From: Desulfurococcaceae archaeon
GTDB taxonomy: Archaea; Thermoproteota; Thermoprotei_A; Sulfolobales; NBVN01
Direction: 5' to 3'
Length of the DNA stretch: 34,949 bases
Assembly: GCA_020833255.1 (NCBI GenBank)
Contig: JAJHQR010000010.1
Location: 1-34,949 of the forward strand
The notes below the pieces were generated by a model. It ran no database searches, was not told where the DNA came from, and saw only the letters and a program-made list of their open reading frames with translations. Shown here piece after piece: positions 13,249 to 33,979 of this stretch. Positions within the stretch are counted from its first letter, which is position 1. Each line of letters opens with the position of its first letter. The position numbers were made by a program, and so were the translations under genes.

Positions 13249-14706
13249 ATGTGGTGTAATAACTTGGCTTCAGCACCTAGATCAAACATGTTATTGGTTG
13301 GTTTAGTCATAGCTATAATAGTTGTGGGTGTTTTAGGCTATTACTTAGGGAGCATGACGGCTCCAGTCTACACGACTACGTACACGCAAGCAGCGCAGAC
13401 AGTCTTCATGACCACCACGAAGACGGAGACCGTCACACCCGTTTATGAACCGCCTGCGAAGATTAGAGCAGGCTTCATATACGTTGGTCCTATAGGAGAC
13501 TACGGCTGGACCTTCATGCACGACTTAGGGAGGAAGATTGTTGCTGAGCTTTATAAAGACTGGCTTGAAACCACATACTACGAGAATGTTCCTGAAGGTG
13601 CTGAGGTCGATAAGTTGAGGGACTTGATAGGGAAGGGATACAACGTCTTCTTCACTACGTCATTCGGTTTCATGGAGGGCACGAGATCCGTGGCTTTACA
13701 ATATCCTAACTTGATCTTCTGGCACTGTAGTGGTTACTCAAGGGAGAAAAACATGGGTACTTACTTCGCTGACTTCTACCAGGTCTACTACCTCAACGGG
13801 TTAGCTGCCGGCGCTTTAACGAAGACTGGTAAGGTGGGTTACGTAGCCGCCTTCTTAATTCCCGAGGTGGTGAGGCACTTAAGCGCTTTCGCTATAGGTG
13901 CTAGGGAGGTCGCTCAGCAGAGAGGGCTTAACCTGACTCTCTACGTGATAGAGATTGGTGCTTGGTATGACCCTGCTAAGGCGAAAGCCGCTGCCGAGAC
14001 CTTAGTCGAGCAGTACGGTGTCGACGTGATAGCATTCACAGAGGATTCAACAGCTATAATAGATTATGCTCAAGAACAGTTTAGTTTAGGTAAGGAGATA
14101 TATGTCTTCAGCCACTATAGCCCCATGTACGTTTACGGTCCTGACGTAGTAGTTAGCGGTCAGTTAGTTAGGTGGGAGATAATATACGCTGACATACTAG
14201 GCAAGATTAAGGCAGGTATCTACACCCCAACAAACCTGAAGAACGTTGATTACTGGTATCTCCTCAACACAGGAGCTGTTGAGATGGCCGCACACATATT
14301 CCCTAACGGTAGCGTCATGCACATCAACCCGAAGTTTGAGGGGCTTCTTAAGGGAGTTACTGTGACTGATAAGCTGTCTGGCAAGACTATGAGTGTTTAC
14401 GACTTGATATGGCTCAGGTACGAGCAGATGAGGAACGCGCCGATGCTAATGTCTTTCCAGCAGATAGCTACCAGCCACATCTACGAGAACATAACCTCTA
14501 TCACTATAACCATAGGAGGCACGCCAACCACCTACCCGATAGCACCCGTATTCGATCCGTTCATGGGCCCGCTAAGCGGTTATAAGATAGATAAACCTAC
14601 AGAGAAGGTCACGGTAGCTCCCGGCACTAGACTAGGACATGACGGTCTTTGGAGCATGGATTGGGTTCCGGACTTCGTTAAGATAGTCGGTAGAGCCGCT
14701 GGTTAG
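13249..14706 (+). CDS. BMP/PnrA-family ABC substrate-binding protein (nucleoside-type)
   Basis: The 485-residue protein begins with a short basic region and one membrane anchor (LLVGLVIAIIVVGVLGYYLG, residues 15-34). A Thr-rich linker follows (about 40-65), the usual crenarchaeal arrangement for exported binding proteins. The BMP domain starts with IRAGFIYVGPIGDYGWTFMH near residue 76; GDYGW is the conserved purine-contact region of BmpA/PnrA/Med proteins. In bacteria this family delivers purine nucleosides to an importer. It is first in a four-gene operon with a double ATPase and two permeases, 11 nt from the next gene. The exact ligand is unknown. Confidence 0.88.
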   Translation: MWCNNLASAPRSNMLLVGLVIAIIVVGVLGYYLGSMTAPVYTTTYTQAAQTVFMTTTKTETVTPVYEPPAKIRAGFIYVGPIGDYGWTFMHDLGRKIVAELYKDWLETTYYENVPEGAEVDKLRDLIGKGYNVFFTTSFGFMEGTRSVALQYPNLIFWHCSGYSREKNMGTYFADFYQVYYLNGLAAGALTKTGKVGYVAAFLIPEVVRHLSAFAIGAREVAQQRGLNLTLYVIEIGAWYDPAKAKAAAETLVEQYGVDVIAFTEDSTAIIDYAQEQFSLGKEIYVFSHYSPMYVYGPDVVVSGQLVRWEIIYADILGKIKAGIYTPTNLKNVDYWYLLNTGAVEMAAHIFPNGSVMHINPKFEGLLKGVTVTDKLSGKTMSVYDLIWLRYEQMRNAPMLMSFQQIATSHIYENITSITITIGGTPTTYPIAPVFDPFMGPLSGYKIDKPTEKVTVAPGTRLGHDGLWSMDWVPDFVKIVGRAAG

Positions 14707-14717
14707 GTGTCTCAAAA

Positions 14718-16262
14718 ATGAGTACCCAGACCTTTTTTTCTTTAAATGGAGAGAAATCCTTAAACCCCATTATTTCCGCTCGTGGTTTATGGAAGAGTTT
14801 CCCGGGTGTTGTAGCTCTAAAAGATGTTAGTCTTGACGTACTCCCCGGGGAGATACACGCTATCTTAGGCGAGAACGGCGCCGGTAAGTCAACGCTTCTG
14901 AAGATATTGTATGGTATTTACGTGCCGGATAAGGGGGATTTATTCTTCGGGGGGAGAAAGGTAGTAGTGACATCTCCTCAGGACGCTGTGAGGAACGGCT
15001 TAGTACTCGTTTCTCAAGTTCCTCAACTCATAGACTCACTAACCGTCGCCGAGAACCTATCACTATCTTTAAGTCAGTTTGGTTACGTGAGTAGTGTGAG
15101 GAAGGTATCTAAGTTTCTCCTAGAGAAAGGCAGAGAATACGGTGTGCGGGTAGATCCGGACATAGAGGTTTGGAAGCTGAGTTATACTCAGAAACAATTA
15201 GTCGAGGTTTTGAGAGCGTTGTTGCTTAACGCTAAGGTAATAGCCTTCGACGAAGCGACCACACTCCTCCCTCACGCCGAGAAAGAGAAACTCTATGACT
15301 TCATGAAGCTCTTTAAGAGTAAGGGGGGTTCGGTTCTGCTCGTAACGCATAAGATTCCCGAAGCCATGGAAGTTTCGGACAGGATAACGGTTCTCAGGAG
15401 GGGGGAGGTGGTCGGCACGGTCAGAACTAGCGAGACCACCCTAGATCAAGTCAGGTATATGATGTTTGGTGAGAGGCTCACACAACTCAACTCCGGTAAG
15501 TATGAGAAGCTGGGTGAGAAGGGTTCGGAGGTTTTAGTTGTGAGGGATCTCTGGGTTAGGAGTGATTACGGCGTCTACGCGGTGAAGGGCGTGTCATTTA
15601 GTGTTCGTAAGGGCGAGATCCTAGGGATAGCCGGGGTCGCCGGTAACGGTCAGCTAGAACTTATTCAGGCGTTAGCGGGGTTGAGGAAGTCTGAGAGAGG
15701 TAGTATACGCTTACGTATTAACGGGAATGAGATCGATGTTACTAACAAGGGTTCGACAGCGATCAGGCGTTTAGGGATAGGGTACATACCGGACGAACCT
15801 GTTAAGAAGGGTGTTTCACTAGATAATAGTATTGAGGAGAACATAGCGGTACATCCCAGACTCACGAGATTCTTAATAAGGTGGGGGGACGTTAAGAGCT
15901 TAGCGACCGATTTAGTCAGGGAGTTCAGCATAGTGACGCCGTCGACCAATGCTAAGGCTAAGGTACTGTCAGGAGGTAATTTAATGAAGGTTTTAGTAGC
16001 TAGGGAGTTGACGGTCTCTAAGGTTGCTTTAGTGGCTTACAACCCTACTAGGGGGTTGGACGAGGTCTCAACACGTTATGTTAGGAGGTTAATAGTTAGT
16101 AAGGCCGTGAGTGAGGGTATGTGCGTTGTGGTCGCTTCCGAAGATCTTGACGAGATTATGGAGATAAGTGACGTAATAGCTGTCATGAACTCCGGTTCCT
16201 TCGTAGGTGTTTTCAAGTCTGGTGTGAGTAGGGAGGAAGTTGAGAGGGTTATGGTGAGTTAA
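14718..16262 (+). CDS. Double-domain ABC ATPase of nucleoside/sugar-type importer
   Basis: The 514 residues hold two nucleotide-binding domains, as in RbsA/NupO-type ATPases. Domain 1 has Walker A GENGAGKST near residue 54, a variant signature LSYTQKQ and Walker B VIAFDEATTLL, where the usual DEPT is DEAT. Domain 2, from about 263, has a P-loop position reading GVAGNGQLEL without Lys-Ser/Thr, signature LSGGNLMK, and NPTRGLD in place of a normal Walker B. Loss of the second P-loop is normal for this family, so only one composite site should hydrolyse ATP. It powers the permeases encoded next. A seven-T run lies at 14733-14739, codons 6-8. Confidence 0.9.
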   Translation: MSTQTFFSLNGEKSLNPIISARGLWKSFPGVVALKDVSLDVLPGEIHAILGENGAGKSTLLKILYGIYVPDKGDLFFGGRKVVVTSPQDAVRNGLVLVSQVPQLIDSLTVAENLSLSLSQFGYVSSVRKVSKFLLEKGREYGVRVDPDIEVWKLSYTQKQLVEVLRALLLNAKVIAFDEATTLLPHAEKEKLYDFMKLFKSKGGSVLLVTHKIPEAMEVSDRITVLRRGEVVGTVRTSETTLDQVRYMMFGERLTQLNSGKYEKLGEKGSEVLVVRDLWVRSDYGVYAVKGVSFSVRKGEILGIAGVAGNGQLELIQALAGLRKSERGSIRLRINGNEIDVTNKGSTAIRRLGIGYIPDEPVKKGVSLDNSIEENIAVHPRLTRFLIRWGDVKSLATDLVREFSIVTPSTNAKAKVLSGGNLMKVLVARELTVSKVALVAYNPTRGLDEVSTRYVRRLIVSKAVSEGMCVVVASEDLDEIMEISDVIAVMNSGSFVGVFKSGVSREEVERVMVS

Positions 16263-16263
16263 G

Positions 16264-17463
16264 ATGCGTTTGATAGTGGTTAAGCGCGTGAAGACATCAA
16301 ACTTATATTACGTTGGGATACCAGTACTCTCCATACTTGCTGGTCTAGCGTTATCTACACTCATATTCGCTTCCATAGGTGTGCCGCCGGATCTATTCAT
16401 CAGCGAGATCCTCGCAGGTTTCCAAAGTCCTCAGACCTTAAGGTATTTCGCTCTACTCGTGATACTGGGTGTTGCGTTAACCATGAGTTTCAGAGCTTCT
16501 ATCTGGAATATCGGTGCTGAGGGTCAGATGATTTGGGGGATGCTTGCAGGGGGTTATATAGCGCTTTTCGTTGCAGCGCAATCCATGTACGTAAGTCCCA
16601 GCGACCTCCCTAACTATGCTAACGTGCCCGGGGTGGAGATCATTGACGCGTCCCCTGTTAAGCCGGTCATCTCAGTTCTCTTAATGGATCCGTCTCTAGG
16701 CAAGTTATTGATGGTTTTATTCGGGATGTTGGCCGGAGGTTTATGGGCTTTAATACCTGCGGTGCTTAAGGCGTATCTAGACATAGATGAGGTAGCATCA
16801 ACCCTCATCTTAAATTATGTGGCGTATCAACTCTTTAACCACTTAGTCTCCTATAACTTGAGGGGTCTTAGTGTTCAAGCTAGGCAATTCTTTAGGACTG
16901 ATAGGATGAATTCAGCGCTCCTCTTTAACTTAATCCCAGGCACCTCAGTTACTGTGCAGGAAGTGCTCATGGCTGTAATATTCTTTGTTTCCGTCGTCTT
17001 GATGTACAGGTATACGGCGGTAGGTCTTAGGCTGAAGATAATTGGGTCGAACCCGCAACTTCTTAGGTCTGTAGGGGTGGATGAGAGGAGGTATATCCTG
17101 TTAGCGATGTTTTTGAGTGGGATGCTAGCGGGTGCTGCAGGAGTCTCAATACTCGCTAATCCTGGCATAGGTAAGTTGGAGAAGATAGCTAACGTGGTTA
17201 GCCCGCCTACGATGAACTTAGGCTACACCGCTATATTAGTCTCGTGGCTCTCAATACTTGACCTACGGTTCGTCCCTATATACGCTTATATCGTGGCCTC
17301 CTTATTCCAGGGTAGTAGCTTGCTTCAGTCAGAGATTAACTCGCTATTTCCTGAGTTATCCTTGACTGGGGCCGCCCTGACATACATACCCATAGGTTCT
17401 ATACTAGTGGTCTACGTAATTCTGAGGATATTCACGGAATACTCGGTAAGGATAATGAGGTGA
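16264..17463 (+). CDS. Nucleoside-type ABC importer permease 1
   Basis: This 399-residue protein has about ten hydrophobic segments and belongs to the BPD_transp_2 (RbsC/LivH-like) family. The stretch FRASIWNIGAEGQMIWGMLA near residue 78 is the characteristic signature of the first permease of BMP-linked nucleoside importers. GLRLKIIGSNPQLLRSVGV near 257 is the cytoplasmic coupling loop. It starts 1 nt after the ATPase stop and pairs with the next permease to form the channel. Confidence 0.9.
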   Translation: MRLIVVKRVKTSNLYYVGIPVLSILAGLALSTLIFASIGVPPDLFISEILAGFQSPQTLRYFALLVILGVALTMSFRASIWNIGAEGQMIWGMLAGGYIALFVAAQSMYVSPSDLPNYANVPGVEIIDASPVKPVISVLLMDPSLGKLLMVLFGMLAGGLWALIPAVLKAYLDIDEVASTLILNYVAYQLFNHLVSYNLRGLSVQARQFFRTDRMNSALLFNLIPGTSVTVQEVLMAVIFFVSVVLMYRYTAVGLRLKIIGSNPQLLRSVGVDERRYILLAMFLSGMLAGAAGVSILANPGIGKLEKIANVVSPPTMNLGYTAILVSWLSILDLRFVPIYAYIVASLFQGSSLLQSEINSLFPELSLTGAALTYIPIGSILVVYVILRIFTEYSVRIMR

Positions 17464-17469
17464 GCTACG

Positions 17470-18393
17470 ATGATAGGGGAGATACTCAACGTGATAATCG
17501 CTATGTCCCCGATATTCGTTTTCTTGTACTTAGCGAGCCTAGGTAATTCCTTGGTTGAGAAGTCAGGCATACTTAACTTAGCTATTGACGGCGCGTACAC
17601 GCTGGGCGTGGCTCTGGTCTTCACTTTACTGGTGTTCGTGAACGACCCCACGCTAGCGTTGCTCATCACATCACTCTTGATAGGGTTGTTAGGCGTGTTA
17701 ATAGCTTTCTTGACTACGAAGCTACCTATATCTCACGGTGCCGTAGGTCTTTCAATTCAGTTCGTGGGTTACGGTCTCGCGTCATTCCTCGCGTACCCGA
17801 TGTCGTTGAAGGTTAGGGCTGAGAGGATAAGCCTCAATACCTACCTTACGATACCTGAGGTCGTCTTAACTTTCTTAACCCTGTCTGTAGTGATCGGGGT
17901 GTTAACGTACTTACTCATCTATAGAACTAAGTTAGGGGCTGCTATAAGAGCTGTGGGCGAGAATCCTGCCGGGGCCTCAGCCCTAGGTATTAACGTCCTT
18001 AAGATAAGGATCGTGGCTACCTTCCTAGGGTACGTTCTAATAGGTTCTGCGTCCTCACTCTACCTACTACTATACACGAAGAACTGGCAAGAAGGTTTAG
18101 GGATGGGTTACGGCTGGATCTCCTTCGCAATATCTTTATCGTCCGGCAGACATCCCCTCGTAGGGATAGCTACCTCAATAATATTCGCTACACTCATCAG
18201 GTACGCGTACGTACTCCAGGACGTGCTAGTGGGGTACGGAATAAGCATATCAACCTTCATAGTCATCGCACTCCCGTTCATAGCAGCCGTATTCATACCC
18301 CTAGTAGTCACCGCGATCCCGCAACTACGCAGGAGGTTCGCACCGCCTAAACACCTAGGAAAGATATTCTTTAGCGAGGAAAGATCTGTGTGA
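17470..18393 (+). CDS. Nucleoside-type ABC importer permease 2
   Basis: The 307-residue BPD_transp_2 permease has about eight to nine helices. The N-terminal signature SLVEKSGILNLAIDGAYTLG near residue 30 and the coupling loop LGAAIRAVGENPAGASALGI near 157 are typical of the second permease in BMP-linked systems. It lies 6 nt after permease 1 and ends the operon. The C-terminal tail is basic and cytoplasmic. A 143-nt gap follows, holding the promoter region of the AbrB-PhoU gene. Confidence 0.9.
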   Translation: MIGEILNVIIAMSPIFVFLYLASLGNSLVEKSGILNLAIDGAYTLGVALVFTLLVFVNDPTLALLITSLLIGLLGVLIAFLTTKLPISHGAVGLSIQFVGYGLASFLAYPMSLKVRAERISLNTYLTIPEVVLTFLTLSVVIGVLTYLLIYRTKLGAAIRAVGENPAGASALGINVLKIRIVATFLGYVLIGSASSLYLLLYTKNWQEGLGMGYGWISFAISLSSGRHPLVGIATSIIFATLIRYAYVLQDVLVGYGISISTFIVIALPFIAAVFIPLVVTAIPQLRRRFAPPKHLGKIFFSEERSV

Positions 18394-18536
18394 AACCACT
18401 CAGCCTCTCACGTACTGTAATCAATCACTAAAACCTCTGAGTTTTAGGAGAGTTAATCGTAAACAAACTAGCAGGAATTTTACGTTACGGTAATTCTTAA
18501 AGTATCGTATCCTTAATATTAGTTGGGTTAAGGTGA

Positions 18537-19427
18537 ATGACTGAGAAGATCGTTAAGAAGGTTGGTTTGGTCGGTAAGGGATCCTTATCAGTAGTCATAC
18601 CTAAGAAGTGGGCGGATTCTATGGGTGTGAAGCCTGGTGACGAGATAGGCTTGATTTTTAACGGCTCTAAAATAACTTTAGTACCTCACACGCAGGAAGA
18701 GCCTGAGAACGTCAACATATTGATCGAGGTCGATGACCTGGATTTAGCCTTAAGAAAACTCATAGCCTCATACGTTGAGGGGGTTACTAAGGTTAAGGTA
18801 AGAGCTGAGTACACGGAGCTACTTAAGATCTCTGAGAGACTCAGAGAGAATATCTCCATGTTCATGCTTAGAGCGGAGCCCGGCTCGAAAATACATGAAA
18901 TACTGTTTAATGACGTGAAGACAGACATGCCGTCAACGCTGAAGCTTATCGAATCAATAACTACTGAAGTCTTGGAGAGCTTGGTTAGCAAGGATTACGA
19001 GAAGGCTTCTATGTATTATAAAGAGTTTATGAGGAACTACCTCTACTTCTTGAGAAACCTGAAACTCAGTCTAGCCGAGAACAGCATCGAGCCTTATGAA
19101 GCCATAGATCTGCTACTCTCTATAGAATACATTAAAGAACTAGTAAATACCTTCCTCAACGTACGGGAACTCACCCCCTCAGAAATGAGGTGTGTTGAGA
19201 AACTTGTGGAATTAGCTGAGGGATCTATAAACTCCTTGCTAGCTCAAGACGTGGACGCAGCCGTCAATACAGCGAGCAACATACTTAAGCTACTTAAAGA
19301 CATAGACGTGGAAACAGATTTCTGCAGGAGGTGCTCGTACCTCATATCGAAAATCTCGGAATTGGTTTTAGGACGTTGCATAAGGAATAAAGCGTGTAGG
19401 TGTAAGCATTTTTACCCTAAGGTGTGA
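18537..19427 (+). CDS. AbrB-PhoU fusion regulator
   Basis: The first 50 of 296 residues are a SpoVT/AbrB swapped-hairpin DNA-binding domain (VGKGSLSVVIPKKWADSMGV, then PGDEIGLIFNGSKITLVP). The rest is a PhoU-like helical bundle in two repeats. This archaeal combination is usually taken as a phosphate-responsive transcription regulator. The C-terminus adds a cysteine cluster (C-R-R-C and later C-x5-C-x-C), unusual for PhoU domains and compatible with a bound metal or Fe-S cluster. It lies between the ABC operon and the hydrogenase operon and has its own upstream gap. Its target is unknown. Confidence 0.85.
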   Translation: MTEKIVKKVGLVGKGSLSVVIPKKWADSMGVKPGDEIGLIFNGSKITLVPHTQEEPENVNILIEVDDLDLALRKLIASYVEGVTKVKVRAEYTELLKISERLRENISMFMLRAEPGSKIHEILFNDVKTDMPSTLKLIESITTEVLESLVSKDYEKASMYYKEFMRNYLYFLRNLKLSLAENSIEPYEAIDLLLSIEYIKELVNTFLNVRELTPSEMRCVEKLVELAEGSINSLLAQDVDAAVNTASNILKLLKDIDVETDFCRRCSYLISKISELVLGRCIRNKACRCKHFYPKV

Positions 19428-19528: not shown

Positions 19529-19559
19529 GATTGTGACCCCTAGTATAGCGGGGGTAGTC

Positions 19560-20138
19560 ATGTATTACGAGCAATCGAGGACTTATTTGCGGACGCCTCA
19601 GTCAGGCGCCGTGTTAGACCCTAGGAGGTATCTCAGCGTGGTAGATAGAGTTATTTGTAAGTATGGCGCTGACAGGAGTAAGTTAATTAACATGCTTCAG
19701 GAAATACAGAGGGAGTTTCAGCACCTTCCTAGACAAGCTCTCGAGATGCTGTCTGTTAAGCTAGGCATCTCATTATCTGAGATTATCAACGTCGCTACAT
19801 TCTATCATCAATTCAGGTTAGAACCTGTCGGGGTGTACGTTATTCAGGTATGCTTTGGCACGACTTGCTACCTTAAGGGGTCTTCGGAAATCTACGAATC
19901 TATGAGGAAGGTGCTTGGCTTGAGGGAAAGAGAGAACACGGCTAGGGACGGCACTATAACTATTGAGAAAGCTAGGTGTTTTGGTTGTTGTAGCCTGGCC
20001 CCAGTCATCATGGTTACTTCATCGGATGGGAGTGAGAGATACGTTCATGGCAGGCTCAACGTATCTGAGGGTAAGAGAGTGGTTCTAGACTACAGATCGA
20101 AAGCTTTGATGAAGTTAAAGGGACTTAAGAATGAGTGA
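19560..20138 (+). CDS. NuoE/HydC-like [2Fe-2S] subunit of the hydrogenase
   Basis: This 192-residue protein has an N-terminal helical bundle and a thioredoxin-like [2Fe-2S] domain. The ligands are C98 and C103 (CFGTTC) and C140 and C144 (CFGCC), the full four-cysteine set. Such subunits accept electrons from the FMN of the NuoF-like partner in NADH dehydrogenases, formate dehydrogenases and HydABC-type hydrogenases. It is the first gene of a five-gene operon and overlaps the next by 8 nt. I chose the ATG at 19560 instead of the GTG at 19533 because of the TATA position and the G-rich ribosome site. It is cytoplasmic. Confidence 0.9.
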   Translation: MYYEQSRTYLRTPQSGAVLDPRRYLSVVDRVICKYGADRSKLINMLQEIQREFQHLPRQALEMLSVKLGISLSEIINVATFYHQFRLEPVGVYVIQVCFGTTCYLKGSSEIYESMRKVLGLRERENTARDGTITIEKARCFGCCSLAPVIMVTSSDGSERYVHGRLNVSEGKRVVLDYRSKALMKLKGLKNE

Positions 20139-21954
20139 GGCTCTAGAATTAGGTTCAGGCACTCGAAAAATCAGTGAACTCATAGTTAGGGTACCTCTAG
20201 CTAGCTGTACTCTGGCGGCCGGCGCTAGCAAAGTACTAGAATCTATTGAGAAAGCTTTAGGGAAGCTAGGTCTTGAAGCGAGAGTTAAGAAAACCGGGTG
20301 TATGGGTTTATGCTACCTAGATCCTTGGATAGAGCTGGAGTCGAGGGGGTTACCGCCGACGATATACGCTAACGTCAAACCGGAGCAAGCTGAGGGAATA
20401 ATAAGGAGGTACGTTGAGGGAGACTTAAGCGGTGCCTTAGCGGTCAGGAGTGAAGCAAGCGGATTCAAGGGCGTGCCAACCCTTAACTCCCTGCCTGAGT
20501 GGAGGCTTCAAGTAAGGTATGTCTCGAGAAACTGCGGCTTCATAGACCCTGAGTCAATAGAAGATTACTTGAGAACCGGTGGTTACTCAGGGCTTAAGAA
20601 AGCGCTTAAGCTAGGTAGGGAAGAAGTGATAGAGATCGTGAGGAAATCCGGTCTTAGGGGTCGTGGGGGAGCGGGCTTCCCTACATGGTATAAGTGGAGG
20701 GTAGCGTACGAGCAGAGAAGCGATGTCAAGTACGTGATCTGCAACGGCGATGAGGGGGATCCAGGAGCTTTCATGAATAGATTGCTGGCTGAGTCAGACC
20801 CCCACAGAGTTTTAGAAGGGTTGATTATAGCGGGTTACGCTATAGGCGCTTCCAGAGGCTACATATTCGTGAGAGCTGAGAAGCCTCTCATGGCGGACAG
20901 GCTTGAGGTGGCTGTGAGGCAAGCTAGAGACTACGGCTTCCTGGGCGAGAAGATACTGGGCACTGACTTCAGCTTCGATGTAGAGGTTTACAGGAGTGCC
21001 GGCGCTTTCGTGTGCGGTGAGGAGACGGCTCTCATTGCCGCAATAGAGGGTAGGTCTAGACCCAGGCAGAGACCGCCTTACCCGGCAACAAGCGGCTTGT
21101 GGGGTAAGCCTACAGTAATAAACAATGTTGAGACTCTCGCACACGTAGCAACTATCTTCCAGACAGGTTTAGACGAATTCACTAAGTACGGGACCGAGAG
21201 ATCTAAAGGAACCAAGATGTTTTGCGTGACCGGCTCAGTTAGGAAGACCGGCGTGTACGAGGTCCCTATAGGCACTAAGATCCGTACCTTAGTATATGAG
21301 TTAGCTGGAGGGCCGCCTGACGGGAGATCTGTTAAGGCGGTTCAAGTCGGCGGCCCGAGCGGCGGGTGCATACCGGCTGATCTACTCGACTTAGAGCTAG
21401 ACTACGAGACCCTGCAGTCTTACGGTGCTATAATGGGTTCCGGAGGGCTTGTAGTGATAGATAATACTAACTGCATGGTTGATGTAGCTAAGTATTTCAT
21501 CACGTTCACCCTAGCAGAGTCTTGCGGTAAGTGCCTGCCCTGCAGGGTGGGGGTGAAGGTACTTGGTGATATTCTTGAGAAGGTGGCGTCAGGTACTGCG
21601 ACCCTAGAAGATCTCGAGCTCTTGAGAGAGCTCGGGGAGAGCATTATGAGGTCCTCCCTCTGTGCGTTAGGGGGTACAGCACCTAATCCAGTGTTGTCTA
21701 CGCTCAGATACTTCAAGAACGAGTACGAAGAACACGTAGTCATGAGGAGGTGCCCGGCTAAAGTGTGTTCTAGGCTGGTAACCTACGAGATAGATCCGGC
21801 TAGGTGTAGGGGGTGTGGGCAGTGCGCTAAGAACTGCCCGGTAAGCGCGATCAGCGGCCAACCAGGCAAGGCATTCAAGATAGATACGAGTCGCTGCACT
21901 AAGTGCGGTCAATGCTTAATAATCTGTCCATTCGGCGCGGTAGTGAAGGGGTGA
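20131..21954 (+). CDS. NuoF/HydB-like FMN and NAD(P)-binding flavoprotein subunit
   Basis: 607 residues with four parts in order. The first is a thioredoxin-like [2Fe-2S] domain with C26, C57 and C61; the usual second cysteine of the first pair is not seen. The second is the NuoF core with LRGRGGAGFPTWYKW near 175 (FMN/NADH), CNGDEGDPGAF near 203 and an AFVCGEETALIAAIEG stretch near 290. The third is the [4Fe-4S] site SCGKCLPCR with a distant C in SSLCALG. The fourth is a C-terminal ferredoxin with two CxxCxxCxxxC motifs (CRGCGQCAKNC and CTKCGQCLIIC). This is the HydB layout of electron-bifurcating hydrogenases, where FMN links NAD(P)H, ferredoxin and H2. It lies 4 nt before the next gene. 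Confidence 0.92.
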   Translation: MSEALELGSGTRKISELIVRVPLASCTLAAGASKVLESIEKALGKLGLEARVKKTGCMGLCYLDPWIELESRGLPPTIYANVKPEQAEGIIRRYVEGDLSGALAVRSEASGFKGVPTLNSLPEWRLQVRYVSRNCGFIDPESIEDYLRTGGYSGLKKALKLGREEVIEIVRKSGLRGRGGAGFPTWYKWRVAYEQRSDVKYVICNGDEGDPGAFMNRLLAESDPHRVLEGLIIAGYAIGASRGYIFVRAEKPLMADRLEVAVRQARDYGFLGEKILGTDFSFDVEVYRSAGAFVCGEETALIAAIEGRSRPRQRPPYPATSGLWGKPTVINNVETLAHVATIFQTGLDEFTKYGTERSKGTKMFCVTGSVRKTGVYEVPIGTKIRTLVYELAGGPPDGRSVKAVQVGGPSGGCIPADLLDLELDYETLQSYGAIMGSGGLVVIDNTNCMVDVAKYFITFTLAESCGKCLPCRVGVKVLGDILEKVASGTATLEDLELLRELGESIMRSSLCALGGTAPNPVLSTLRYFKNEYEEHVVMRRCPAKVCSRLVTYEIDPARCRGCGQCAKNCPVSAISGQPGKAFKIDTSRCTKCGQCLIICPFGAVVKG

Positions 21955-21958
21955 TCGC

Positions 21959-22612
21959 ATGGTTAAGGTTTACGTGAATAATAATGAGGTCGAGGTATCT
22001 CAAGACGCCTTAGTCATCGATGCTGTTGAGAAAGCTGGATATGAGGTTCCGACCCTGTGCTACCTTAAGGGCCTCTTCAACGAAGCTACTTGCAGGATAT
22101 GTGTTGTCAAGGTTAATGGGAAGGTCGTGCCGTCATGCAGGTTTCCCGTCTTCGAAGGCGCTAGAATCATAGTAGACGATAGTGAGTTAAGAAGGTTAAG
22201 GAGGGTTAACCTAGAATTACTCCTAGCTACACACGAGATCAAGTGCTGGTCTTGCGTGAGGAAGGGTATGTGTGAGTTACTTAGTCTCAGTAAGAGATTG
22301 GGGGTGGAGGGTATTCCCGTGTGTAGTGAGTGCCCGTTGCGTGGTCGCTCCTGCCTAGTTTTGAAAGGCTTTCCGTGTTTAGGCCCCCTAACAGTGGCCG
22401 GATGCGATGCTGAATGCCCTAGGAGGGGATCCCCGTGCATTGGGTGCAGAGGTTATATCATGAGTGAGGACGTCTGGGTTAGGGCTCTTGAAGAATTCTA
22501 TAAAGATAATGTGAGCTTAAACGAGCTTAAATCATTGATTAGTTTCTTCTGGTCATACCTACCGCAAAACCTTTACAGACTTGTGAGGGAGGTGAGTAAC
22601 GTTGAGTATTAA
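21959..22612 (+). CDS. Chimera: NuoG/HydA-type N-terminus fused to C-terminal segment of a [NiFe] small subunit
   Basis: 217 residues. Positions 1-65 are a plant-type [2Fe-2S] ferredoxin domain with C34, C45, C48 and C60. Positions 90-106 give the His-Cys3 [4Fe-4S] site (H92, C96, C99, C105) of NuoG and [FeFe] HydA. From about 120 the protein no longer follows NuoG. It has eight cysteines (122, 125, 132, 140, 149, 153, 160, 163) in the order CSECPLRGRSC, FPCLGPLTVAGC, ECPRRGSPCIGC. This is the medial/distal cluster segment of MvhG/FrhG-like group 3 small subunits, followed by a helical tail like theirs. The proximal-cluster half is missing and appears instead two genes downstream (23896). The ATG is preceded by GGGGTGAT. 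Confidence 0.8.
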   Translation: MVKVYVNNNEVEVSQDALVIDAVEKAGYEVPTLCYLKGLFNEATCRICVVKVNGKVVPSCRFPVFEGARIIVDDSELRRLRRVNLELLLATHEIKCWSCVRKGMCELLSLSKRLGVEGIPVCSECPLRGRSCLVLKGFPCLGPLTVAGCDAECPRRGSPCIGCRGYIMSEDVWVRALEEFYKDNVSLNELKSLISFFWSYLPQNLYRLVREVSNVEY

Positions 22613-23888
22613 GCTTACTTCAGAAGTGGTGAGGGTTGCTGGAGAATCAGAAATTCTTGTCTCGATTGATGGGGAGAGAGTTAAGGTAGAGTATGATAGC
22701 TTAGCCAGCCCCAGGTCTTTCGAATCCTTGGTTACGGGGCGTAAGTACTGGGAAGTGCCGTACGTGGTTTCCAGGGTGTGCGGGGTCTGTAGCCACGCCC
22801 ATTTCTGGGCGTCAAACTTAGCTATAGAGTTAGCTCTAGGGATTAAGGTAGATGAAGCCACATCAACTCTTAGAGACGCCTGCAATAAACTCCAGATACT
22901 TCAAAACCACGTAATACATCTGGGATTCCTGGTCTTGCCAGACTACGGGTATTCGGTGGGGAACGACAAGTACGTAAGCACGCTACTCAAAGTGAATAGG
23001 GTGGTTAACGAAGCTCTAAGGCTATTAGGTGGTAGACTAACCAACCCAAACGTGTACGTCCCCGGAGGCTTCACCGAAGATCTGAAACAACCGGTGATTA
23101 AGAGGGTCGTGAACCTCTTGGAAAGCGTAGGTAACGACTTGAGAGAATTAGCTAACATTATATTAAGTATCGAGCTCCCGGAGCTTGAGGATCCTTCCCC
23201 CGAGTACGTCTCCCTGAGGAATTCACCCAGCGTGACAGTACCTGTTGAAGGGCCCTACATCATAGATTCTAGCAAGAACACGTATACCGTCTACGAAAAC
23301 TACCGTGAAATCTTCGTTGAACGTTACCTAGACTTATCAACGAGTAAGAAGTGTTTAATGAATGGTGAGAAGGTTTTCCACACGGGTGCTAGAGCTAGAT
23401 TAATCAATTACTTAAAGGGTGGGTCGGGCTTAAGTAGCGAGCTCAGATATCTCATAGCTAGGTATGAACCGCTCTTCAAGAAAAACCCGTTCTCCAATAT
23501 CTACGCGAAAATAATTGAGTCACTACTCATATACGAGAACCTACTGCAAACACTATCCTCGCTAGATACAGGAAAACTTAGTAGGGTGAGGCCCGGCAAT
23601 AGTTTTAGTGGTGGTTTCGGCGTCGGGGTCGTTGAAGCTCCTAGAGGTCTTTTAATACATTATTATGAGTTAAACCCTGAGATGAGGGTAATTAAGGCAG
23701 ACATAATAACGCCTACAGTAATGTTCTCGAAACACATAGAGGTTAGTAGTGAGGCTTTAATAAAAGGTTTGTTAGCCAGCGAGGAGGGGCGAGACGAATC
23801 ACTAGTTAAAAGATTCGTTGAAGCCCTGGTCAGAGCTTACGACCCTTGCATCCCTTGCGCGGTTCACGTAATTAAGATGAAGAGGTGA
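22602..23888 (+). CDS. [NiFe]-hydrogenase large (catalytic) subunit, group 3 type
   Basis: This 428-residue subunit keeps both nickel motifs, RVCGVCSHAH (C60, C63) and DPCIPCAVH (C416, C419, H422), so it should bind the NiFe(CN)2CO centre and split or make H2. Six residues follow His422, the C-terminal peptide that a maturation endopeptidase removes. Overall length and the short L1-to-start distance fit cytoplasmic group 3 enzymes (Mvh, sulfhydrogenase, Hox). The start is TTG behind a perfect GGAGGTGA and overlaps the preceding gene by 11 nt. No maturation genes (hyp, endopeptidase) are in the window. Confidence 0.92.
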   Translation: MSIKLTSEVVRVAGESEILVSIDGERVKVEYDSLASPRSFESLVTGRKYWEVPYVVSRVCGVCSHAHFWASNLAIELALGIKVDEATSTLRDACNKLQILQNHVIHLGFLVLPDYGYSVGNDKYVSTLLKVNRVVNEALRLLGGRLTNPNVYVPGGFTEDLKQPVIKRVVNLLESVGNDLRELANIILSIELPELEDPSPEYVSLRNSPSVTVPVEGPYIIDSSKNTYTVYENYREIFVERYLDLSTSKKCLMNGEKVFHTGARARLINYLKGGSGLSSELRYLIARYEPLFKKNPFSNIYAKIIESLLIYENLLQTLSSLDTGKLSRVRPGNSFSGGFGVGVVEAPRGLLIHYYELNPEMRVIKADIITPTVMFSKHIEVSSEALIKGLLASEEGRDESLVKRFVEALVRAYDPCIPCAVHVIKMKR

Positions 23889-23895
23889 GTCGAGA

Positions 23896-25293
23896 GTGTC
23901 CGTTAGGTTAGCGGTAGTGCCTCTCTCAAGTTGTGATGGGTGTCAGTATAATCTCTTGAATGAGGAATTCCTAGATTTACTGAAGGGACTTAACGTCAAG
24001 CTAGTTTCCTGGCCTTTGCTAGGGCTGGGGGACGGCGCAGAAATGTACGATATAGCGTTAGTTGAGGGATCCGTAATGTCGAGCAGAGACTTGAAAACCC
24101 TTCTTGACGCGAGGAGGAAGTCAAGGGTCTTAGTAGCTATGGGTGCTTGCGCGTTGTTAGGGGGTGTTCAAGCGTGGTCAAGCAACTCGATTTCGAGGAA
24201 ATTGGTGAGTGAAGCAGGTTTTTCCAGACCCATAAATCATTACGTTAAGGTGGATCACTACGTTAGGGGGTGTCCGGTAAACGTAGGCGAGATGATTAAG
24301 TTATTGAAATCATTGATTAGTGGTGACTTAATTTACGTCGGTAGTAGGAGATTTAATTACGTCAGCAGGGATAGTTTCAAGATCAGCGGCTCGCTCCTTG
24401 AGATAGAGACTTCTAAGTGCGTTGTATGCGGTAGGTGTGTTGAGGTTTGCTCGCTGATAGGCGCTAGAGCACTAAACTACGTTTTTAAGGGAATACAGAC
24501 AAATATTTCCACACCATATCAAGAGTCTTTAGAGAGTGCTGGATGCGTTAATTGCGGGCTTTGCTTCGCTTACTGCCCGGTCGGGGCAGTAAGCCTTAAA
24601 ACGAGAACGGAGGATCTGCTAGATAAGATCCGTGAAGGATTTTTGAGAACAGCTTACGTAGAGCCTGAAGCGCTGGCGTCTCTCATGGAGTCAGATAATC
24701 TTGAGTTAGGGCAAGTGATTTCAGCTATTAAACAGATAGGGTTTACGAAGGTATTCATATACTCAAACCTTTGTGAGGCTAAAAACAGTGTTGGGGGTGA
24801 GGTCCTAGCAAGATCGCCCGTAGAATTCTCGATACTTAGTAAGCAGGTTCCTGAGCATAGTGTTTACTTACTCGCTCCAAGAATACCTCAGGACTCCATA
24901 TACATATCTCAATGCGTTTCGTGGAGGAATGTCGTGAACTCGTTAACCACGCGCGAGCTCCAATCACTCATAAGGGAGTTAGGTACGGAAGAATTAGATT
25001 CGGAAAGACCTGACGGCGTGGTAGGCTATGGGGAAGACATTATAGTGGTTAGCGAGCTTAAGGATGTGAGGAAAGCGTTATCGAATCCTGAGAAACCCTT
25101 CAGGAAGATAGTCTTTGAAGCGTGTCCGGGAGGCTGCCTCCTAGGTGGGGGGCAATCAATCAGCAAGTACAACGACTTAACCAAGGTGTTAGTAAGGAGG
25201 AGGGATATGCTTAAGAAAATCACGACCGGAAACCTCGTCTCTCAGGACGGGGAGAGGTCTGTTGTTAATTGCTTAACTAACCCAACTCTCTAA
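23896..25293 (+). CDS. Chimera: [NiFe] small-subunit N-terminus, 2x[4Fe-4S] ferredoxin, degenerate [FeFe]-hydrogenase domain
   Basis: 465 residues in three parts. Residues 1-140 are the flavodoxin-like half of a [NiFe] small subunit with proximal-cluster ligands C13 and C16 (SSCDGCQ), C85 (MGACA) and C126 (RGCPVN). Residues 170-235 are a two-cluster ferredoxin (C175/178/181/185 and C217/220/223/227). Residues 240-465 follow the [FeFe]-hydrogenase catalytic domain: a helix ending GFTKVFIYSN, a central SQC (C340) at the L2 position, SLTTRELQSLIRELGTEELD, then FEACPGGCLLGGGQ (C410, C414), which is the L3 motif. The L1 TSCCPAW motif is absent, so an H-cluster is very unlikely; one remaining [4Fe-4S] is possible. 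This gene supplies the small-subunit half missing from the gene at 21959. The start is GTG with GGTGA 7 nt upstream. Confidence 0.82.
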   Translation: MSVRLAVVPLSSCDGCQYNLLNEEFLDLLKGLNVKLVSWPLLGLGDGAEMYDIALVEGSVMSSRDLKTLLDARRKSRVLVAMGACALLGGVQAWSSNSISRKLVSEAGFSRPINHYVKVDHYVRGCPVNVGEMIKLLKSLISGDLIYVGSRRFNYVSRDSFKISGSLLEIETSKCVVCGRCVEVCSLIGARALNYVFKGIQTNISTPYQESLESAGCVNCGLCFAYCPVGAVSLKTRTEDLLDKIREGFLRTAYVEPEALASLMESDNLELGQVISAIKQIGFTKVFIYSNLCEAKNSVGGEVLARSPVEFSILSKQVPEHSVYLLAPRIPQDSIYISQCVSWRNVVNSLTTRELQSLIRELGTEELDSERPDGVVGYGEDIIVVSELKDVRKALSNPEKPFRKIVFEACPGGCLLGGGQSISKYNDLTKVLVRRRDMLKKITTGNLVSQDGERSVVNCLTNPTL

Positions 25294-31270: not shown

Positions 31271-31501
31271 GTGAGTGCTTCTAGCACGAAGTTCCGTGTC
31301 AACATAATAACGAACAGGTGTAAGGAGTGCGGTATATGCATAGGCGTTTGCCCTACTAAGGTCTTGGTGAAGGGGGATAAGCATAACGAGCATGGTTTTA
31401 GGTACCCACTCCCAGTCAATATCGAGAGATGCATTGGTTGCAGGCTTTGCGAGTATAATTGTCCTGACTTCGCTATCTTCGTGGAGGTCGTTAAGAAATG
31501 A
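31271..31501 (+). CDS. korD: 2-oxoacid:ferredoxin oxidoreductase, delta (ferredoxin) subunit
   Basis: A 76-residue two-cluster ferredoxin with CKECGICIGVC and CIGCRLCEYNC, each with the distal Cys-Pro turn. It carries electrons from the catalytic subunits to external ferredoxin. Its stop overlaps the alpha-subunit start (ATGA), giving the D-A-B-C order of KorDABC-type enzymes. The GTG start has no clear ribosome site; TATA-like stretches lie near 31191-31203 and 31211-31222. Confidence 0.88.
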   Translation: MSASSTKFRVNIITNRCKECGICIGVCPTKVLVKGDKHNEHGFRYPLPVNIERCIGCRLCEYNCPDFAIFVEVVKK

Positions 31502-32622
31502 GGAAGTCTTTTATTTCCGGGAACATAGCGATAGCTGAGGGGGCCATCACCGCCGGGATGAGGTTCTTCGCCGGATACCCCATAACGCCCGCGTCTGATA
31601 TAATGGAATACCTAGCTGAGAGATTGCCTGAGATCGGGGGAGTAGTTACGCAGTTTGAAGACGAGATCGCGTCAATAAACGCTGTAGTAGGTGCTTCGTG
31701 GGCCGGGGTCAAGTCTATGACGGCTACGTCAGGCCCTGGATTCTCACTCATGCTTGAGGCTCTGGGTCTCGCCGTAATAACTGAGACCCCGTTGGTTGTG
31801 GTAGACGTTATGAGGGCAGGACCTTCTACTGGAGTACCTACCAAGACTTCTCAGAGTGACGTCATGCAAGTCAGGTACGGCGCGCACGGGGATTACGTAA
31901 TCCCCGTCTTCGCCCCGTGGTCCGCTCAAGAAGCTTACGACTTAACCATAAAAGCTTTCAACGTGGCTGAGTCTTTGAGGACCCCTGTAATACTTCTTTC
32001 AGACGCTGTAATCGCTCACTTATGGGAGTCTGTGCTTCTAGCGGAGCCTGGGGAGGTGGAGGTAATCAATAGGAAGAAGCCTAGTAGCCCGCCTGACGAG
32101 TACCTGCCTTACAAGCCAGACAATGATTTAGTGCCTCCTATGGCGACATTCGGCGAAGGCTATAACGTGATAGTTGAGTCCTTAATACATGATGAGAGAG
32201 GGTTCTACAGGCAAGATAGGGAGGCTTACCGCAACCTAGTTAAAAGGATTGTCAACAAGGTTTTAAGCAGGGTTGACTCCTTATTTGAGGTAGAGGCTTA
32301 CTATGGTGATGATTACAAGTACCTGCTAGTCTCATTCGGTTCTACTGCTAGGTCAGCATTAGCTGCCGCCAGGATCCTCAGGAAATCAGGTATTAAGGCA
32401 AGCTTACTCAGGCTTAAGACGTTATCGCCTCTCAAGCTCGAGACGCTTAGGAAGTATTGTGACGAGGCTGAGAAAATATTCGTTGTGGAGAATAACATGG
32501 GCAAGCTAGTGCACGATGTCGAGAGAGCGGCTGAGAACGATAAAGTAATTTCCTTGCCACTACTAGACTTAGAAATACCTGAACCTAAAGATATCGTGGA
32601 GGGTGTTAGGAAATGGTTGTGA
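31498..32622 (+). CDS. korA: 2-oxoacid:ferredoxin oxidoreductase, alpha subunit
   Basis: 374 residues. GYPITPASDI (residues 26-35) holds the YPITP substrate motif, QFEDEIASINAVVGASWAG is the conserved domain I core, and MRAGPSTGVPTKTSQSD near 103-119 contacts substrate and CoA. The C-terminal third (YLLVSFGSTARSALAAARIL) is domain II. The enzyme oxidatively decarboxylates a 2-oxoacid with CoA, reducing ferredoxin. Separate alpha, beta and gamma subunits with a small delta fit a 2-oxoglutarate-type enzyme best, but substrate choice cannot be fixed from sequence. It overlaps the beta gene by 10 nt. Confidence 0.9.
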   Translation: MRKSFISGNIAIAEGAITAGMRFFAGYPITPASDIMEYLAERLPEIGGVVTQFEDEIASINAVVGASWAGVKSMTATSGPGFSLMLEALGLAVITETPLVVVDVMRAGPSTGVPTKTSQSDVMQVRYGAHGDYVIPVFAPWSAQEAYDLTIKAFNVAESLRTPVILLSDAVIAHLWESVLLAEPGEVEVINRKKPSSPPDEYLPYKPDNDLVPPMATFGEGYNVIVESLIHDERGFYRQDREAYRNLVKRIVNKVLSRVDSLFEVEAYYGDDYKYLLVSFGSTARSALAAARILRKSGIKASLLRLKTLSPLKLETLRKYCDEAEKIFVVENNMGKLVHDVERAAENDKVISLPLLDLEIPEPKDIVEGVRKWL

Positions 32623-33449
32623 GCACTTTGGAGAGTTCTCACCCGCTAGACAAATACTTGAGGACCGCGAGGCTACCACACATATGGTGTCCTGGCTGCG
32701 GGCTCGGAATAGCTTTAGGGAGCATAATGAGAGCGATAGACAAGAGAATTAAGGAGGGAACACTAAAGAAAGAGAACTTAGTCTTCGTTACAGGCATCGG
32801 TTGCTCTGCCAGGACCTCATTCTACGTTAATTTCGACGCAGCACACACCCTGCACGGGAGGGCCATAGCTTTCGCTACGGGCGCTAAGCTAGCTAAACCT
32901 GAACTGGAAGTAATAGTTATCGGCGGTGACGGCGATATCGCTGGCATAGGGGGTAATCACCTACTCCATGCGGCTAAAAGAAATATGGACTTGATAGTCT
33001 TGATGATAACTAACTTCGTTTACGCGATGACTGGGGGTCAGGTAGCTCCTACAACACCGCTCGGGCTTTACACAACCACGACACCTCACGGGAATCCTGA
33101 ACCACCCCTAAACGTGGTTAAGGTTGTTTCCTCTCTTAACGCTAACTACGTGGCTAGAGCTTCAGTCACGCATCCGGCACTGGTAGAGCAGTACGTGTAT
33201 AAAGCTCTAGGTATGAGGGGGTTCAGGTTCATAGAGATACTCTCCACCTGTCCTGAGATATTCGGTAGGCACATAGGCATGAGGGATCCCTTCACACTCT
33301 ACAGCACGCTAAGGAGTAAGGTAATCGTTAAACAATCACCCAGCATCGAAGAATCGGATCTTGACTGGGGGAAAGGCTTCGTTATAGGGGAGTATTTAGT
33401 TCGTGATAATCCAGGTTATTTGGATAGGATTGGGAGGGGGTTGAAGTGA
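32613..33449 (+). CDS. korB: 2-oxoacid:ferredoxin oxidoreductase, beta (TPP-binding) subunit
   Basis: 278 residues. The N-terminal WCPGCGLG (a [4Fe-4S] cysteine pair), GIGCSAR near 55, and GGDGDIAGIGGNHLLHAAKR followed by NFVYAMTGGQ form the TPP-Mg site. It carries out the thiamine chemistry and passes electrons through its own cluster to the ferredoxin subunit. It is co-translated with alpha (10-nt overlap) and gamma (4-nt overlap). Confidence 0.92.
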   Translation: MVVSTLESSHPLDKYLRTARLPHIWCPGCGLGIALGSIMRAIDKRIKEGTLKKENLVFVTGIGCSARTSFYVNFDAAHTLHGRAIAFATGAKLAKPELEVIVIGGDGDIAGIGGNHLLHAAKRNMDLIVLMITNFVYAMTGGQVAPTTPLGLYTTTTPHGNPEPPLNVVKVVSSLNANYVARASVTHPALVEQYVYKALGMRGFRFIEILSTCPEIFGRHIGMRDPFTLYSTLRSKVIVKQSPSIEESDLDWGKGFVIGEYLVRDNPGYLDRIGRGLK

Positions 33450-33979
33450 AGATAGAGATACTTCTCGTTGGGAGAGGGGGTCAGGGAATCCTACTCCTAG
33501 GACGTGTTTTAGGAGTCGCTATGTCTAAGTACGCTAACCTCTACGTCACCGGCGTGGAGTCATACGCTTCCGAGACTAGGGGTGGGGAGTCACGCGTAGA
33601 CCTAATAGTTTCCGATAAGTCTGAGGAGATGGATTACGTGAAAGTGTTGAATGCCGACATAGCTCTCTTCATGTATCCCTACAACTTAGTGAAGTATTCG
33701 GAAGTCTTGAAGAGAGACGCGTACGTATTCATCAACTCCACGTTCGTTAAAGAACACCCGTACACGACGCAGAAAGTTTTCATGAGACCGTATAACGAGG
33801 TAGCTGAGAAAGTGGCTGGAACTTCCAGGGTAGCTAATATGGTGGCTTTAGGTCACATAATCGCGAAGACTGGTGTTCAGAAAGCGGAATACGTTGAGAA
33901 AGCTTTGAAGGAAATTATTTCGGAAAACCTCTACGACGTAAACGTTAAAGCTTTAAGAGCTGGTCTTGAACTAGATTAG
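33446..33979 (+). CDS. korC: 2-oxoacid:ferredoxin oxidoreductase, gamma subunit
   Basis: 177 residues of the POR_N-associated gamma domain. VGRGGQGILLLGRVLGVAM is the glycine-rich opening, followed by VTGVESYASETRGGESRVDL, which is diagnostic for the family. The subunit helps bind CoA. The GTG start overlaps the beta-subunit stop. It is last in the operon and is followed within 2 nt by a small palindrome. Confidence 0.92.
   Translation: MKIEILLVGRGGQGILLLGRVLGVAMSKYANLYVTGVESYASETRGGESRVDLIVSDKSEEMDYVKVLNADIALFMYPYNLVKYSEVLKRDAYVFINSTFVKEHPYTTQKVFMRPYNEVAEKVAGTSRVANMVALGHIIAKTGVQKAEYVEKALKEIISENLYDVNVKALRAGLELD

Follow-up and report, generated by a model that had tools for sequence, protein, structure and literature searches.

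The NiFe-HydABCSL hydrogenase of Acetomicrobium mobile (Type 3 NiFe-Bfu, PDB 7t2r), the [FeFe]-HydABC enzymes of Thermotoga maritima and Thermoanaerobacter kivui, and the group 3b soluble sulfhydrogenase I (SHI) of Pyrococcus are the described systems closest to the locus considered here. HydA of A. mobile is a protein distinct from HydS, which is a one-cluster subunit of the HoxY type, and the large subunit is HoxH-like (group 3d). Electrons of this enzyme pass along FMN-B1-A1-A2-A3-S1-NiFe, with A4 and A5 forming a dead end (PMC8880783). Here we describe an operon from a Desulfurococcaceae archaeon (GCA_020833255.1), carried on a 34,949-nucleotide stretch of contig JAJHQR010000010.1 (hereafter the window). 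It comprises five genes, hydC, hydB, A', L and C', at positions 19533-25293, with few-base overlaps or gaps between them. We consider it likely that the operon encodes an NAD(P)H/ferredoxin-linked, probably bifurcating [NiFe] hydrogenase built on a HydABC core, in which HydA and the [NiFe] small subunit have exchanged tails.

The evidence for this exchange lies in A' and C', both of which are chimeras. A' matches HydA of bifurcating [FeFe]-HydABC over residues 5-123 (E = 6e-22), including a [2Fe-2S] region and a His-Cys3 region whose cluster we take to be A3 by homology to CpI. This is followed over residues 119-185 by a match to the delta subunit of SHI (E = 1e-16), in the eight-cysteine C-terminal part of a group 3 small subunit (S_C). 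C' begins with the proximal-cluster half of the same subunit (S_N; SHI delta match over residues 3-141, E = 2e-17), continues with the 2x[4Fe-4S] segment of HydA (residues 152-290, E = 9e-21, extending past the ferredoxin region), and ends in a shortened, [FeFe]-like H-domain. Between the chimeras lies a complete group 3b-like large subunit, L, which carries both CxxC motifs (RVCGVC and DPCIPC) and matches SHI alpha over its full length. A first-pass annotation, made from the sequence without database searches, had proposed this domain make-up and the permuted order small-C, large, small-N; its open reading frames are where it placed them, and the searches bear out its domain assignments and order.

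Profiles of A' (30 sequences) and C' (28 sequences) served to map the breakpoints. On the HydA side, A' covers residues 1-119 of the T. maritima protein and C' begins at residue 118 (119|118-120); on the SHI delta side, C' covers residues 3-157 and A' covers 161-253 (157|161). Because neither parent loses or duplicates any part, A' and C' look like both products of one tail exchange, and they are best read from these alignments as a reciprocal swap between HydA and the small subunit, with complementary breaks in both parents. The joint between the HydA N-part and S_C (xxGVEGIP|VCxEC) has a zero-length linker and is identical in nearly all hybrids.

The proximal, medial and distal ligands of a group 3b small subunit are all present, split between A' and C', and the A1-A4 ligands, including those of A3, are likewise distributed over the two proteins and invariant. 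Across 30 A' homologs, for instance, all eight S_C cysteines are invariant, as are Cys34/45/48/60 of the [2Fe-2S] site and His92 with Cys96/99/105. Many independent assemblies carry the operon, some of them on contigs several hundred kb long, which puts the arrangement far beyond chance; a chance or assembly artefact was rejected.

C' could also be read differently, with residues 1-235 as a complete FrhG-type small subunit (a flavodoxin-like domain plus ferredoxin) instead of S_N joined to a HydA segment. NCBIfam FrhG does align with residues 3-229 (E = 8e-19), but for the ferredoxin part HydA is the better match, and this match runs on into the post-ferredoxin region (E = 9e-21 over residues 164-288), the spacing and the TPF segment between the clusters are of HydA type, and the S_C part that C' lacks sits intact in A'. 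On these grounds, FrhG-type identity was rejected as very improbable.

Table 1. Features of the tail-swapped hydrogenase operon (window positions).
Feature	Positions	Strand	Evidence or remark
hydC (BfuC), thioredoxin-like [2Fe-2S] subunit	19533..20138	+	PF01257, E = 3e-39
hydB (BfuB), FMN/NAD(P)H subunit	20131..21954	+	top PDB matches are bifurcating BfuB
A' gene, HydA N-part + small-subunit C-part	21959..22612	+	
A_N, [2Fe-2S] (A1) + His-Cys3 [4Fe-4S] (A3), A' residues 1-119	21959..22315	+	PF13510, PF10588
S_C, group 3b small-subunit medial + distal cluster part, A' residues 120-217, 8 Cys	22316..22609	+	SHI delta residues 161-253
L, group 3b-like [NiFe] large subunit with a short tail past DPCxxCxxH	22602..23888	+	SHI alpha, E = 8e-38, full length
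C' gene, small-subunit N-part + remainder of HydA	23896..25293	+	
S_N, proximal-cluster domain	23896..24345	+	PF01058, E = 1e-19; SHI delta residues 3-157
A_mid, HydA 2x[4Fe-4S] (A2, A4)	24349..24615	+	HydA: T. maritima from 118, T. kivui from 121
Degenerate H-domain	24616..25221	+	Ser307 replaces TSCCP ligand Cys; Cys340, Cys410, Cys414 kept

The H-domain of the window's C' is only faintly visible by sequence: PF02906 reaches it with E = 8e-4, below the cut-off, and Pfam sees only the last motif. Its [FeFe]-like catalytic fold is secured by other means. An AlphaFold model of C' (predicted local distance difference test score, pLDDT, 79) matches [FeFe] HydA in Foldseek (E = 2e-14 over 405 columns), and two Thermoplasmatota homologs match PF02906 over its full length (E = 2e-25 and 3e-22). 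Among the aligned Thermoproteota C' proteins, the position equivalent to C300 is Ser with a sole exception (L045), and the other three Cys are invariant. Those of Thermoplasmatota and of a Candidate Phyla Radiation (CPR) bin retain all four. A possible counterpart of the A5 site, at which a [4Fe-4S] cluster replaces the H-cluster in NiFe-HydABCSL, consists of three Cys and a Ser in Thermoproteota and of four Cys in Thermoplasmatota. The exceptional sequence (L045:6065-7525), from the deepest branch among the Thermoproteota hybrids, reads IIPCCYSA in the first H-domain motif; with this CC pair it may keep all four cluster ligands.

The maturases are missing as well. HydF scored above the cut-off in none of the 29 Thermoproteota carriers, and HydG was not found in the window's own genome or in the five Thermoplasmatota carriers tested. 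With Ser307 at the ligand position and HydF and HydG missing (HydE was not searched for), the protein departs from group A [FeFe] hydrogenases. The same two losses mean that the H-domain cannot hold an H-cluster, and an active one was rejected for the window enzyme. The H-domain is nonetheless under purifying selection, with a ratio of nonsynonymous to synonymous substitution rates (dN/dS) of ~0.11 between the window and its nearest relative (0.09-0.45 across all domains), which indicates that it is used for something else. A dual-catalytic hybrid, with H-cluster and NiFe site both active, would fit the four Cys kept in Thermoplasmatota and CPR C', the two full-length PF02906 matches, and the presence of HydG and HydF in the CPR genome. 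It is nevertheless highly unlikely: the window enzyme has Ser for the ligand Cys and its genome is without HydG, HydG is absent from all five Thermoplasmatota carriers tested, and the CPR genome also encodes a separate [FeFe] HydA (C68).

The enzyme type is suggested by HydB and HydC. HydB, a protein of 607 residues, has an N-terminal thioredoxin-like [2Fe-2S] region, the B1/B2 regions and a C-terminal 2x[4Fe-4S] region, and it aligns over its full length with 7t2r_B and 9bov_B, including CMVD, ESCGKC, SLC, RCPAKxC and 2xFer4. Its top PDB matches are all bifurcating BfuB, at 605-690 bits versus 391 bits for complex I, and the Cys of its cluster regions align with those of A. mobile HydB. For BfuC, too, the top matches are bifurcating enzymes. 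Together with BfuC, a BfuB with regions B1-B5 makes up the core of NiFe-HydABCSL, and the operon has this core. The same parts might instead form a non-bifurcating NAD(P)-dependent hydrogenase with Hox- or SHI-like physiology, as L and the small-subunit parts are nearest to the group 3b sulfhydrogenase. We regard this as decidedly unlikely, given that the N-terminal [2Fe-2S] and C-terminal 2x[4Fe-4S] of BfuB are typical of bifurcating enzymes, that its best matches are all bifurcating, and that the operon is without SHI beta/gamma genes.

In the bifurcating enzyme proposed here, A' and C', folded together, would restore two units, a wire like that of HydA and a small subunit of group 3b. Electrons would travel along FMN-B1-A1-A2-A3, enter the distal and medial clusters of S_C, next to A3 in the same chain, and then pass through the proximal cluster of S_N to the NiFe site in L. 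Because S_C is fused directly behind A3, the swap sits at the small-subunit docking site, and neither parent fold need be lost. The branch through A4 and the H-domain would be a side arm without H-cluster, retained for structure or for a Ser/Cys-ligated cluster. The physiological direction is presumably from NAD(P)H and ferredoxin to H2. Three subunits of a 2-oxoacid:ferredoxin oxidoreductase (Por) are encoded at window positions 31498-33979; they are a plausible reduced-ferredoxin source.

Some 30 Thermoproteota genomes share the conserved swap, which is found again in Thermoplasmatota and in a single CPR bin that bears the label Nealsonbacteria. A set of 60 relatives yielded full-length A' in 17, and a phylum-wide sample of 398 genomes yielded full-length C' in about 18. 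Among the carriers are Sulfolobales, Desulfurococcales, Pyrodictiaceae, Ignisphaera, Thermofilum, Wolframiiraptor and one Bathyarchaeota metagenome-assembled genome. Three gene orders occur: C-B-A'-L-C' in Thermoproteota, C'-C-B-A'-L at five loci (L079, L131, L132, L134 and L169), and C-B-C'-A'-L at L133, with which L077 agrees where visible. A' adjoins L in all three.

Several of these loci have features of their own. In the five loci with the second order, HydB is ~1050-1070 residues long (for example, L079, 3783-6977) and carries a GltD/NfnB-like FAD/NAD(P) domain past the NADH-4Fe-4S region, replacing the usual C-terminal 2x[4Fe-4S]; this points to a bifurcating enzyme that couples to NADP(H). 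The CPR contig (L134:1-14848) holds the tail-swapped operon together with an unfused hydCBA-S-L operon of the A. mobile type in divergent orientation, and its genome also encodes HydF, HydG and an [FeFe] HydA that is separate from both. At L046:6231-9868, in a genome related to that of L040, the cluster is fragmented, with HydB in three pieces and stops in C', and is apparently decaying.

The origin of the swap can be approached through an unfused hydA-S-L cluster present in two genomes, G1023 (Thaumarchaeota archaeon SJ3.Bin70) and G1042 (loci L165:4837-8566 and L166:7174-10862). Its HydA has a full H-domain with all four Cys kept, HydG was not found in either genome, and HydA there apparently serves only as an electron carrier for a group 3b hydrogenase. 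Among unfused HydA proteins, it is also the one closest to the Thermoproteota hybrids, at moderate support (ultrafast bootstrap, UFBoot, 82; SH-like approximate likelihood ratio test, SH-aLRT, 96). S and L of the hybrids together take three separate tree positions, and a single clade for the NiFe parts was rejected by the approximately unbiased (AU) test both for S+L (p-AU 9.5e-47) and for S_N by itself (p-AU 4e-4). One clade is compatible with the HydA parts of all hybrids (p-AU 0.35). S_C, too short to decide, groups the hybrids with support 81, with no rejection of the S_N/L grouping (p 0.19 and 0.13). From this contrast between S+L and the HydA parts it follows that there was either an exchange of the NiFe half or more than one swap at the same point.

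This bears on how the operon arose. The first-pass annotation had suggested that a single insertion made a [NiFe] enzyme out of an [FeFe] scaffold. On this view, a permuted S-L circle would have entered an active [FeFe] hydA once. Crossing over once in hydA, such a circle would yield precisely the Thermoproteota order C-B-A'-L-C', rotating it would yield the C'-C-B-A'-L of Thermoplasmata, and one origin fits the HydA parts. However, a third order exists, the S+L and S_N trees reject a single clade, and HydG is already absent where hydA-S-L is unfused; we therefore consider this route unlikely. Unfused hydA-S-L without HydG, together with the known unfused NiFe-HydABCSL, also means that a NiFe partnership is possible without the swap. 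The domains, permuted order and exact complementary breaks of the annotation thus stand, whereas its single insertion and its conversion of an [FeFe] scaffold by that insertion are not supported in the form proposed. A simpler route to all three orders, we infer, would be one recombination between hydA and S where they lie side by side in a hydA-S-L cluster, leaving A'-L in place and releasing an S_N-A_rest gene that reinserted at differing gene borders.

The HydA/small-subunit boundary at A3 may further be a reusable exchange point, at which the swap arose repeatedly or across which S_N and L were repeatedly replaced; a cut there would be tolerable because S physically docks at A3. We hold this tentatively, at slightly less than an even chance. 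If true, present-day hybrids would be mosaics in which a single HydA lineage is combined with at least two or three distinct group 3b hydrogenases.

A few observations weigh against the proposed tail-swapped, bifurcating enzyme. AlphaFold2 confidence is low for S_C alone (~46-66), and bifurcation by the window enzyme is predicted from homology only. The unfused hydA-S-L clusters are without adjacent hydB/hydC, where visible. At two Thermoproteota loci (L033:1067-3154 and L040:5125-7194), C' directly follows A' with no L between, and the best L elsewhere in these genomes is an SHI-like copy of only ~30% identity; these loci may have lost L or receive it in trans.

Upstream of the operon, window positions 13249-19427 hold genes for a BmpA-type substrate-binding protein and an ABC transporter, followed immediately before hydC by one for an AbrB/MazE-domain protein, a possible regulator.

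Greening et al. 2024 (Cell, doi 10.1016/j.cell.2024.05.032) reportedly described hybrid complexes, spread over ten orders of archaea, in which [FeFe] and [NiFe] hydrogenases are fused. The operon likewise fuses parts of both classes, and the A'/C' family is expected to be among those hybrids, which makes the fusion as such less novel. The architecture is of uncertain novelty: the reciprocal breaks, unfused relative, gene orders and exchange of the NiFe half may already be published. No permuted hydrogenase small subunit was found in a literature search, whose reach did not extend to Greening et al. 2024. The locus is a natural case of two unrelated hydrogenase classes joined by reciprocal protein-level crossover and not by end-to-end fusion. 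The exact reciprocal break, shared in position by distant lineages, and the unfused relative allow its origin to be traced. Unfused hydA-S-L, the intact-fold H-domains of Thermoplasmatota and the degenerate ones of Thermoproteota look like steps from an [FeFe] catalytic subunit to a pure electron wire.

In comparison with known systems, the operon shares HydB, HydC and every HydA domain, in order, with [FeFe]-HydABC, but its HydA is cut after the His-Cys3 domain and has lost the H-cluster ligand and maturases. SHI is the nearest match for L and both small-subunit halves; in contrast to SHI, the small subunit is not a single chain but is split across two chimeras, and HydB and HydC replace beta and gamma. 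The likeness to NiFe-HydABCSL lies in the HydB/HydC core, a HydA wire with a degenerate catalytic domain, and a NiFe module attached via A3. The small subunit differs from that of A. mobile in being of 3b type, split, and tail-swapped with HydA instead of a separate chain, and the coincidence of the fusion joint with the A3 docking site of A. mobile is directly testable by structure.

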